In this document: piece by piece, positions 15,458 through 19,189 of the stretch | Layout of the letters: the number at the start of each line of letters is the position of its first letter | Numbering within the stretch: the stretch's first letter is position 1 | From: Haloarcula taiwanensis | GTDB lineage: Archaea; Halobacteriota; Halobacteria; Halobacteriales; Haloarculaceae | Reading direction: 5' to 3' | Length of the DNA stretch: 64,000 nt | NCBI GenBank assembly: GCA_002844335.1 | Contig: CP019154.1 | Coordinates: forward strand, 124,001-188,000 | Made by a program: the position numbers and the translations under genes | The notes under the pieces: generated by a model | Told to the model about the DNA's origin: nothing | The model's database searches: none | The model's input: the letters and a program-made list of their open reading frames with translations, nothing else

Positions 15458-16063
15458 TTATTCCGGCAGTTCGTCGATGAGGACGACCGCTTCGCCATCG
15501 ATGACGACATCGTCGTCAGCAAGGACGCGCGTGGTCAGCCGGTACTGTTCGTCGCCGAGGTCCTCGACGATTTCACATTCGGCAGTGAGCCGGTCACCAA
15601 TACGGACCGGGTTGTGGAACTCCAGGTCCTGCGAGAGATAGATAGTCAGCCCCGGCAGCCGTGCCAGCGCCGCGCTGATGAGACTCCCGACGAGCGTCCC
15701 GTGGGCGATTCGGCCGCGGAAGCGTGTCTGCTCCGCGAACTCGTCGTCGAGGTGAAGCGGATTCGTGTCGCCGCTCGCGGCGGCGAACTGTTGCACGTCG
15801 TTTTCCGAGATCGTCTTTGTGAAATCGACGTGGTCGCCGACGCCGAGGCGGCCCGGATGGTCTTCGGAGATCGAGACGTGCCATTCGGGGAGATCTTCGT
15901 CCGGTTCGATACGGTCTGCGGGCGTTACGCCGTCTTCGTCCTCCTGCTGGACGCCGAACGCGGCGAACGCTGCCCGGTTAGCTGCGACGACGCTGTTGAA
16001 CATATGTGACGATGTTTCAGTCCATGTGTCTAACAGCGGGTTTCGTGGCGATTCAGAACTCAT
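15458..16063 (-). CDS. maoC: MaoC-family (R)-specific enoyl-CoA hydratase of the PHA cluster (PhaJ-like)
   Basis: 201 residues from ATG 16063 (MSSESPRNPLL); the longer frame upstream is non-coding in character. An N-terminal extension with NPLLDTWTETSSHMFNSV is followed by a hot-dog domain carrying the intact hydratase motif FAAASGDTNPLHLDDEFA and GRIAHGTLVGSLIS. Such hydratases turn enoyl-CoA into (R)-3-hydroxyacyl-CoA for PHA synthesis. It is divergent from phaR, the order described for Haloarcula. A TTTAATA box lies about 30 nt upstream. Confidence 0.88.
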   Translation of the reverse strand: MSSESPRNPLLDTWTETSSHMFNSVVAANRAAFAAFGVQQEDEDGVTPADRIEPDEDLPEWHVSISEDHPGRLGVGDHVDFTKTISENDVQQFAAASGDTNPLHLDDEFAEQTRFRGRIAHGTLVGSLISAALARLPGLTIYLSQDLEFHNPVRIGDRLTAECEIVEDLGDEQYRLTTRVLADDDVVIDGEAVVLIDELPE

Positions 16064-16222: not shown

Positions 16223-16255
16223 ACCATTCTCTACCATTCAATGGTAATCAATGGT
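16223..16255. promoter_or_regulatory. 33-bp perfect nested dyad, candidate PhaR operator
   Basis: Four half-sites lie on a common centre at 16239: ACCATT at 16223 and 16233, and AATGGT at 16240 and 16250. The inner pair forms TACCATTCAATGGTA (16232-16246), and the outer pair is displaced by exactly 10 bp, about one helical turn. It lies 12 bp upstream of the phaR TATA box. Haloarchaeal PhaR is an AbrB-type repressor known to bind pha promoters, so two dimers on one face is the natural reading. Operator identity is inferred. Confidence 0.7.
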
Positions 16256-16267
16256 TTTCAGCGGAAG

Positions 16268-16276
16268 ATTTATATT
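16268..16276 (+). promoter_or_regulatory. TATA box of the phaR-phaP-phaE-phaC operon
   Basis: ATTTATATT is centred near 16272. An archaeal start site about 26 nt downstream would fall near 16298, giving phaR a leader of only about 5 nt. The operator-like dyad ends just upstream, so a bound repressor would block TFB/TBP access. Confidence 0.65.
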
Positions 16277-16303: not shown

Positions 16304-16603
16304 ATGGCCGACGAGGATGATGGCCTGCTGTGGCCTCCGATGTTCAAGGGGATGCAACAGGCGAGCGAGAACGCGATGGAACAGCAACAGCAGCTGATGA
16401 AACAGATGTTCGCCAGCGGTGGCATGCCGAGTTTCGATATGAATCAGCTCGGTGCCATGAGCCAGATGGCGACGTTCAAGACCCGCGTGCAAAGCGGGGG
16501 TCGGATCAGCATTCCTGATGCGGAGCGAGAGGCGCTGGGCATCGACGAAGGCGACATCGTGCAAGCCGTCGTCCTCCCGGTCACTAACAACAACAGCGAG
16601 TAA
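16304..16603 (+). CDS. phaR: PHA-cluster transcriptional regulator PhaR (AbrB/SpoVT-type)
   Basis: 99 residues. The N-terminal 55 are Met/Gln-rich and helical (MQQASENAMEQQQQ) and probably bind granules or multimerise. The C-terminal part is a swapped-hairpin AbrB domain (TRVQSGGRISIPDAEREALG, then DIVQAVVLP). In Haloferax mediterranei PhaR is reported to repress pha genes and sit on PHA granules. It starts the operon here, with the dyad at 16223-16255 just upstream, which suggests autoregulation. Confidence 0.92.
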   Translation: MADEDDGLLWPPMFKGMQQASENAMEQQQQLMKQMFASGGMPSFDMNQLGAMSQMATFKTRVQSGGRISIPDAEREALGIDEGDIVQAVVLPVTNNNSE

Positions 16604-16610
16604 TCCAACA

Positions 16611-17168
16611 ATGGTAGACTACACAACCCCCGTCACGACAGCGTTCGAGATGCAGCGTGCGACGATCGAGCAGAGCCAGAAGGCGCTCGAACAGAGTGTT
16701 TCCTTCCAGCAGAACGTTAACAACGCGGTTATCGACAGCCTCGACACGCAGGAGTCGGCACAGCGCCGCGGTGTCGAGCTCCAGCAGACTGCGTTCCACA
16801 GCTACCTCGACGCGATGGCGTCGACCATGCCCGGCATGACCGAAACCGTCGAGCAGATCCGTGAGACCGTCGACGAGCAGTTCGACTTCTTGCTCGAGAA
16901 CCACGCCGAACTGTTCGACAATATGGAAACCGAGCTCGAAGAAGGCGTTGACACCTACGACGAGATGACCGACGAGTACGTCACGGCCGTCAACGACCAG
17001 GTCGACATGCTCGTCGAGGCCCACGAGGAACTCGAAGCGCAGTCCGTCGAGGCCGCCGAGCAGTTCGGCGAGCAGCTCGAAGAAGTGCAGGAGCAGGTCG
17101 AGGAGATTCAGGAGCAGGTCGAGGAAGTGCAGGCCGAAGCCGCCGACGCTGTCGACGTCGAAGCGTAA
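16611..17168 (+). CDS. phaP: haloarchaeal phasin PhaP
   Basis: 185 residues from ATG 16611, 7 nt after the phaR stop. It is almost wholly helical and acidic, with long amphipathic heptads; the C-terminus carries repeated EEVQEQ/EEIQEQ units that form a coiled coil (about 155-180). Phasins coat polyhydroxyalkanoate granules and control their size. The position between phaR and phaE matches the haloarchaeal cluster. Confidence 0.92.
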   Translation: MVDYTTPVTTAFEMQRATIEQSQKALEQSVSFQQNVNNAVIDSLDTQESAQRRGVELQQTAFHSYLDAMASTMPGMTETVEQIRETVDEQFDFLLENHAELFDNMETELEEGVDTYDEMTDEYVTAVNDQVDMLVEAHEELEAQSVEAAEQFGEQLEEVQEQVEEIQEQVEEVQAEAADAVDVEA

Positions 17169-17213: not shown

Positions 17214-17759
17214 ATGAGTAACACAAACGACATTCAGGAGGAATGGACGGAGATGGTTGAGGAGATGAACAACGCGGTCGCCGACTCGATGGAGCAGAAC
17301 ATGAAGGCCCAGGCGGCCTTCGTGGAGTCGTGGGCCGATGCTGTCGAGGATACAATCCCGGAGCAGGAGGACCTTGCTGACGGGATGGACGGCTACAACC
17401 GCGCCTACGAGGAGTGGATGGACGCCGCCGAGCAGATGGTCGAACGCTCTACCGACGCCGCTCGGGGCGAGGATGTCGACCCCGCCGAGTTCCGTGACAT
17501 CTGGCTGCAGTCCGCCAATGAGGCATTCAAACACGTCATGGGTACCTCGGCCTTTGCGGCCGCCAACGGCCAGCTCGTCGAGTCGATGATGGAGATGCAG
17601 CAGGAAGCGGACGACCTGAGCCAGGACACGCTGGAACAGCTCGGCTTCCCGACGCGAGACGATGTCGACGAGGTCGGCGAGCGGCTCATTGAACTGGAGC
17701 GCCGCCAGCACGCGGTCGAACAGAAGCTCGACCGCGTGCTTGAACACTTGGAAGAGTAA
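17214..17759 (+). CDS. phaE: class III PHA synthase subunit PhaE
   Basis: 181 residues from ATG 17214, preceded by a Shine-Dalgarno-like GAGGT 6 nt upstream. It is helical and acidic, with [20 protein letters not shown] matching the conserved core of PhaE and a C-terminal coiled coil ([20 protein letters not shown]). Haloarchaeal PhaE is much shorter than bacterial PhaE, and this length fits. It partners PhaC, which starts 2 nt downstream. Confidence 0.92.
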
Positions 17760-17761
17760 TC

Positions 17762-19189
17762 ATGTCAAGCAACCCCTTCAATCCGTTCGAAGCCGCGCTC
17801 AACTGGCAGCGCAAGACACTGGAGAACATGACCGACGCCGCCGAGACCAGTCAGATCGCCGACGAGCGGCTGGAACTGCTGGAGTCCGTCGAAGTCGGTC
17901 AGACGCCGAGCAACGTCGTGTACGAGGAGAACAAGCTCGAACTCCTCCATTACGACGCCGAGGCTGCCGGTATCGAGGTACCGGACGAGGAGACGGAAGA
18001 TATCCCGATTCTCATCGTCTACGCCCTTATCAACCGGCCGTACATCCTCGACCTGCAGGAGGAGCGGTCGGTCGTCCGACGGTTGCTCGAGGCGGGCCAC
18101 GACGTGTACCTCATCGACTGGAACGAGCCCTCGCGGCTCGACCAGCACCTCACGCTCGACGACTACGTCAACCGTTACATGGACAACTGCGTCGACGTGG
18201 TCCGCGACCGCTCCGGCCAAGACGCCATCAACATCCTCGGCTACTGCATGGGCGGGACCATGTCGGTGATGTACACTGCGCTCCACAAGGAGAAGGTCAA
18301 CGCTCTCGGGCTGATGGCGGCAGGACTGTGTTTCGACCACACTGGTGGCGTCCTCGAAGAGTGGGGCTCCGACGAGTACTACGAACCGAGCGACGTGACC
18401 GAGACGTTCGGCAACGTCCCCGCGGACATGCTCGACATCGGGTTCGCGCTGATGGACCCCGTCGAGAACTACGTCACGAAGTACATCCGGTTCGCGGAGA
18501 ACATGGAGAACGAGGGCTTCGTCGAGAACTTCGGCCGGATGGAGAAATGGCTCGGCGACGGTATCGACGTGGCCGGCGAGGCCTATGTTCAGTTCCTCGA
18601 AGACGTGTATCAGGACAACAAGCTCTACAGGAACGAGCTGGAACTCAACGGCAAGCACGTCGACCTGGACAACATCGACATGCCGGTCCTCCAGCTCATG
18701 GGCGAGTACGACCACCTCATCCCGCCAGAGGCCTCCAAGCCGTTCAACGACGTCATCGCTAGCGACGACACGCGCACGATCGAGTTCTCGACGGGCCACA
18801 TCGGCCTCTCCGTCTCGTCGTCGACCCACGCCGACCTCTGGCCCGAGGTCGCCGAGTGGTATTCTGAGCGCAACAAGGGAAGCGGCGAAGTCGACATCGA
18901 GGTCGAATCTCCCGACGAGGCTGACGACGACCCGGTAGACCAGTCGGAACCTACTGACATCGACGTTGACGCGACGACCGATGTCGATGCCACCGAGGAC
19001 GAAGACGATGCGACCGACGAACCCGCGGACGTCGATAGCGTCTCCGGTATCGGCCCGACCTACGCCGACCGTCTCCACGGCGCTGGCATCCACAGCGTTG
19101 CGGACTTGGCTGAATACGATGCGGCCGAACTGGCCGACATCGCTGAGACTACCGAGTCCCGCGCGCAGGACTGGCTCGACCAGCTGTAA
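17762..19189 (+). CDS. phaC: class III poly(3-hydroxyalkanoate) synthase subunit PhaC with C-terminal HhH extension
   Basis: 475 residues, the length of Haloarcula PhaC. The lipase-like box GYCMGG puts the catalytic Cys at 162; Asp317 (GEYDH) and His346 (STGHIG) complete the triad. The enzyme polymerises 3-hydroxyacyl-CoA into PHA with PhaE. After an acidic linker (about 378-424) the last 50 residues form a helix-hairpin-helix domain ([17 protein letters not shown]), part of the long haloarchaeal C-terminal extension. It ends the phaR-P-E-C operon. Confidence 0.95.

Follow-up and report, generated by a model that had tools for sequence, protein, structure and literature searches.

The 33-bp element at 16223-16255 in front of the phaR gene of Haloarcula taiwanensis is very probably the PhaR operator of phaRP(EC), an array of four phased TGGT boxes, each one helical turn from the next, on which PhaR would bind and block the promoter until polyhydroxyalkanoate (PHA) granules relieve the block. 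The array has a fixed phase, a fixed polarity and a fixed position relative to the promoter, it is conserved, and it is also present before other phasin genes. The DNA analysed was a stretch of 64 kb, referred to below as the window, and all coordinates are those of the window.

The element upstream of phaR and its gene neighborhood

From position 16223 the element reads ACCATT, CTCT, ACCATT, C, AATGGT, AATC and AATGGT, which corresponds to the half-site pattern ACCATT-N4-ACCATT-N-AATGGT-N4-AATGGT with a dyad axis at C16239. The first-pass annotation had described two dyads of ACCATT and AATGGT with a 10-bp offset, and the half-sites are indeed exact, the outer ones being displaced from the inner ones by exactly 10 bp. 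The symmetry is limited to the half-sites, and the 4-bp spacers (CTCT and AATC) are asymmetric. Boxes 1 (16223-16228) and 2 (16233-16238) are ACCATT on the minus strand (R type), and boxes 3 (16240-16245) and 4 (16250-16255) are AATGGT on the plus strand (F type). Their centres at 16224, 16234, 16244 and 16254 lie 45, 35, 25 and 15 bp, respectively, before the start of the TATA box. Boxes 2 and 3 form the orientation switch ACCATTCAATGGT (16233-16245, without strand), the sole unit of the array that has GGT-type half-sites on both sides.

The BRE-like sequence CGGAAGA and the phaR TATA box TTTATATT (16269-16276) together span 16262-16276 on the plus strand, as assigned from the consensus and from the profile conserved in 110 phaR promoters. 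The last box is separated by 6 bp from the BRE-like sequence, a position that matches the Haloferax mediterranei-type site directly upstream of BRE, and by 13 bp from the TATA box, a gap that confirms the earlier placement of the element just upstream of that box. The phaR gene itself (16304-16603, plus strand, with the ATG at 16304) encodes a protein of 99 amino acids, of which approximately residues 56-92 form an AbrB-like DNA-binding domain. It is followed on the same strand by phaP, which encodes a haloarchaeal phasin (16611-17168), by phaE, which encodes a subunit of the class III PHA synthase (17214-17759), and by phaC (17762-19189), whose product is the class III PHA synthase and ends in a helix-hairpin-helix domain (Pfam HHH_5). 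The phaP gene is probably co-transcribed with phaR, and co-transcription of the two genes has been reported as demonstrated in Haloferax mediterranei (PMC7137286). On the minus strand, the divergent maoC/phaJ gene (15458-16063) starts 159 bp from box 1, and no box was found in its own promoter. The gene order maoC-phaR-phaP-phaE-phaC is that of a cluster reported from haloarchaea (PMC7137286). A helix-hairpin-helix-like C-terminal end, judged by eye, was also seen in some stand-alone phasins (L188 and L190), and such ends of PhaC and of some phasins might tether the granule to DNA.

An inverted repeat of this kind may also be read as an RNA hairpin or a terminator, as self-pairing is possible over the half-sites. 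However, the element precedes the TATA box of phaR on one side and the start of the divergent maoC gene on the other, and it should therefore be absent from the transcripts of both genes; moreover, homologous arrays in which all boxes point in one direction are unable to form a hairpin. We consider this explanation highly improbable.

With up to 3 mismatches allowed, the full pattern had one match in the window and no match in any of 100 dinucleotide shuffles, and the window had one in-phase array of at least 3 boxes, compared with an average of 0.02 in a shuffled window. The three-box pattern was found at this single place in the 3.72-Mb genome, with one match per strand because the element is symmetric. 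The two-box patterns, direct and inverted, each occurred here and at one other place in the genome, with no excess over controls. That the element is a chance or relict sequence without function has its small size and nothing else in its favor; it is refuted by the shuffles together with the conservation of the boxes in Haloarcula (0.94 for the box bases against 0.82 for the spacers and 0.81 for the upstream flank), and we give it practically no weight.

A phased array in haloarchaeal phaR promoters

The promoter sample consisted of 80 named haloarchaeal phaR loci together with 60 promoters from other families and 2 plasmid loci, and after removal of near duplicates 110 phaR promoters were analysed. 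Exact boxes were defined as RTGGT (F) and ACCAY (R). The distances between exact F boxes were 10 (86 pairs) and 20 (24 pairs), those between exact R boxes were 10 (33), 20 (14) and 30 (5), and those from R to F were 8 (22), 18 (40) and 28 (20), with a shuffle expectation of about 0.1 for each. Exact F-to-R pairs had no preferred distance in the 110 promoters. With the middle letter of GGT or ACC taken as the box centre, every distance became a multiple of ten. Thus, the boxes form a phased array, and a box can be reversed without leaving the phase. An alternative in which each TGGTATCA box contains the centre of a self-dyad was considered and dropped, as it would shift the R-to-F switch 3 bp out of phase. 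Judged from the promoter sequences, the conserved feature is an array of usually two to four exact boxes in strict 10-bp phase and not a nested dyad.

The array is built of units in which a seven-base core of about ATYNRAT, identical to its reverse complement, stands between GGT or ACC linkers. The linker centres are at -15, -25, -35 and -45 relative to the TATA box, with an uncertainty of one base in the assigned TATA position, and the four centres in the window, with the TATA start at 16269, are exactly on this class-wide grid. The array is also polar. F boxes outnumbered R boxes by 70 to 6 at -15/-16, and R boxes outnumbered F boxes by 25 to 4 at -45/-46, that is, the upstream boxes are of the ACC type and the downstream ones of the GGT type, and the place of the single switch point varies from species to species. 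Among the 134 pairs of adjacent exact boxes in phaR promoters, 80 were FF, 33 RR and 21 RF, and none was FR; with one-mismatch boxes included, FR pairs numbered 6, against 23 ± 3 when the directions were permuted within positions. The rule of no F-to-R neighbors in phaR promoters is strong but not proven, its counts being inflated by the relatedness of the species. As a universal law it was rejected, since it is broken by one group of stand-alone phasin promoters and by L216. In the related phasin promoters L235, L238, L241 and L242 (family f3), an F-to-R pair was seen in which an ATGGT-type box is followed by ACCATTTAGGGG.

The first-pass annotation had taken the two concentric dyads for a functional design that predicts two regulator dimers. 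The exact half-sites in the window speak for an operator made of the nested symmetry itself, as does the RRFF order, which is common to many Haloarcula species. In contrast, three loci of the same genus (L094, L102 and L107) have RFFF on the same grid, and the orders found across the class, which include RFFF, FFFF and RRRR, keep the 10-bp phase without nested dyads. RR, FF and RF neighbors were all found across the class, with F-to-R alone missing, and four boxes at 10-bp steps give three inner units, not two. Because the relatives keep the phase without nested dyads, the overall symmetry is not the conserved feature and sets no number of dimers, and we regard a two-dimer design of this kind as improbable. 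The two concentric dyads in the window are the appearance of an RRFF array with the switch in its middle.

Conservation of the half-sites before phaR in other haloarchaea, on which the first-pass annotation had staked its proposal, was found across the 110 promoters. The array is also specific for these promoters: in the 82 named loci, 45 arrays of at least 3 boxes were found in phaR promoters, and none elsewhere in 488 kb. PhaR identity with the named Haloarcula relatives is 97-99%. Some phaR promoters depart from the pattern, most clearly those of Halovenus (L052, L054, L055 and L058), in which no box array was found, while the DNA-binding domain of PhaR is intact, and phaR control may be lost or altered in this genus. 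The N-terminal WPP motif of Halovenus PhaR is changed to GPQDF. Haloarchaeal phaR with box-like upstream sequences was also seen on contigs labelled as bacterial MAGs (L019, L042 and L063; labels Salinivenus, Bradymonadaceae and Ectothiorhodospiraceae), and these contigs are probably misbinned.

The array accompanies phaR and also precedes some phasin genes

Of 292 genomes, 46 had the strict two-box pattern, with a total of 54 sites, while the reversed pattern gave 5. The phaR gene was present in 45 of these 46 genomes, and the pattern occurred in 1 of the 126 genomes without phaR. Among the sites away from phaR, seven precede phasin genes (L184, L186, L187, L188, L189, L190 and L203), several of them with the same spacing to BRE and the TATA box as at phaR, and one adjoins a phaJ gene (L183). 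As a safeguard against circularity, phasin-like genes were picked by protein profile search, and their 38 upstream regions, all previously unseen, were analysed; 4 of these regions belong to phaR operons, and there are close relatives among the others. At least two in-phase boxes were found in 15 of the 38 regions, against 1.2% of shuffles, and three in-phase boxes in 7 of the 38, against none in shuffles. The arrays before stand-alone phasin genes tie the element to granule control and to PhaR, and in other species PhaR appears to have a small granule regulon. In genome G285, an array of three to four boxes was seen before a polyprenyl synthase-like gene (L182, about position 1491 of the reverse complement), which is a possible PhaR target beyond the PHA genes.

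In Haloarcula taiwanensis, pattern searches of the whole genome revealed no further perfect array that could be a second target. The regulon search proposed in the first-pass annotation was therefore negative for this genome, and it is in relatives, before stand-alone phasin genes, that further arrays were found. Relaxed two-box searches of the genome gave about 1.8 to 2 times as many matches as the controls with the reversed pattern, and their number and scatter were too great for any one site to stand out. The other exact direct pair (L085) was rejected as a second target: it is located at a predicted gene start, and the promoter layout is absent. Since this genome has one recognisable phasin gene, within the pha cluster, and no second full array, the element in this organism looks like a single-target autoregulatory operator.

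The same distribution bears on the idea that the array is bound not by PhaR but by another regulator, such as PspR or an activator. Archaeal activators often bind just upstream of BRE, which counts against the repressor reading. In Haloferax mediterranei, PspR is reported to bind in the region of the phaRP promoter (PMC10948481). However, its authors call this binding weak, and their list of haloarchaea with PspR has 13 entries (PMC10948481), whereas the arrays track phaR and phasin genes and are nearly missing from genomes without phaR. Furthermore, the box fits the consensus of bacterial AbrB, and PhaR itself resembles AbrB. Binding by another regulator is thus an unlikely explanation of the array.

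Comparison with known operators

In Haloferax mediterranei, the activity of the phaRP promoter was reported to be about fourfold higher when phaR was deleted and about twofold lower when PHA synthesis was lost (PMC7137286). The negative element of this promoter is described as semi-palindromic and immediately upstream of BRE (PMC6085418), and the promoter as having four tandem repeats that are probably the PhaR site (PMC9049629). The window element shares with it the gene, the regulator family, the site and the four semi-palindromic repeats, PhaR repression being published for Haloferax mediterranei; the four boxes of the window in 10-bp steps are likewise tandem and semi-palindromic. The RRFF array of the window, with its central switch, was compared with the Haloferax mediterranei element by its description in citing papers and not base by base. 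In Haloferax larsenii (L178), the nearest named relative used for this comparison, the boxes CCCAT, ACCAT, GCCAT and ATGGT stand in 10-bp phase. By its sequence, the window element is a further instance of the operator type already known from Haloferax mediterranei. The earlier proposal of an operator for PhaR autorepression with relief by granules agrees, by analogy, with the published picture in that species. In the open-access literature searched, we found no description of the 10-bp unit with a moving switch point, of the phasin regulon or of the match to the bacterial AbrB consensus TGGNA-N5-TGGNA.

Bacterial AbrB sites are described as bipartite, with TGGNA motifs 4-5 bp apart (PMC8552724), the consensus is written TGGNA-N5-TGGNA (PMC11497800), and AbrB is reported to bind cooperatively on long sites (PMC4022651). 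Among the 86 FF pairs, an A follows GGT in 86%, which gives TGGTA-N5-TGGT and hence the two TGGNA boxes of an AbrB site. The haloarchaeal FF units, TGGTA-N5-TGGT(A), have the same box and the same spacing as the AbrB operators of Bacillus subtilis and Geotalea; in the window, boxes 3 and 4 read TGGTA-ATCAA-TGGTT, the second box being without the final A. Bacterial AbrB sites are degenerate and occur at many genes, while the haloarchaeal boxes are strict, come in fixed-phase runs of up to four or more, and belong mainly to PHA granule genes. Bacterial PhaR, in Cupriavidus and others, is reported to repress the phasin gene and itself, as archaeal PhaR does (PMC9049629). Unlike haloarchaeal phaRP, bacterial phaP and phaR have separate promoters according to the same source (PMC9049629), and the likeness to bacterial PhaR noted here is one of function.

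PhaR has an AbrB-type signature (GR-x-x-IP ... R-x-x-LGI) in its C-terminal half. It matched TIGR01439 with an E value of 4e-5, under the curated cut-off, and PDB 2glw in a profile comparison with an E value of 1.3e-7; its AbrB matches are below the Pfam and NCBIfam cut-offs. In 32 diverse homologues, 28 columns are invariant, nearly all of them within the AbrB-like domain, and R61, R67 and R75 are invariant. A local match to B. subtilis AbrB was also obtained, and in this alignment R67 and R75 of PhaR correspond to R15 and R23 of AbrB, with AbrB R24 replaced by E76. AbrB R15 and R23 belong to a set of four arginines proposed to contact DNA (PMC4022651). AbrB and PhaR would have the swapped-hairpin AbrB domain in common, as predicted on the PhaR side, with PhaR retaining some of the four AbrB arginines, and R61, R67 and R75 may be candidate GGT readers on GGTATCAGATGGT. 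The AlphaFold model of the PhaR monomer had a mean pLDDT of 65 and gave no usable fold.

Proposed mechanism and significance

The assignment of the element as the PhaR operator is supported by the 10-bp phase, the position relative to the TATA box and BRE, the specificity of the array, the co-occurrence with phaR, and the sites before phasin genes. PhaR, as an AbrB-like swapped-hairpin dimer, would most likely occupy neighboring boxes of the array in a cooperative manner, with the dimers aligned on one face of the DNA at 10-bp intervals. The promoter-proximal box would set PhaR against TFB/TBP, so that the initiation complex could not assemble. On formation of PHA granules, the regulator would relocate to the granule surface, the array would be emptied, and phaR and phaP would be expressed.

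More tentatively, as a reading less likely than not to be right, we suggest that PhaR reads TGGNA-N5-TGGNA as bacterial AbrB does, that its operators are strings of self-complementary 10-bp units with one-sided linkers in which each dimer requires at least one good half-site, and that the phased string nucleates a row of dimers, which granules titrate from phaR and from all phasin genes. If each GGT or ACC linker strengthens just one of its two neighbors, the lone movable switch of the phaR promoters would be a vestige of this rule. The resemblance between the PhaR and AbrB boxes may reflect either a shared code or a chance agreement of short motifs.

The array gives a precise definition of the operator for a PHA storage regulator across a whole archaeal class, which allows the regulon to be sought in sequence data and the promoter to be tuned for bioplastic strains. 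It also offers a simple test of whether one recognition code serves the archaeal and bacterial branches of the AbrB fold, and a test of the granule as a sink for a repressor on a phased array.
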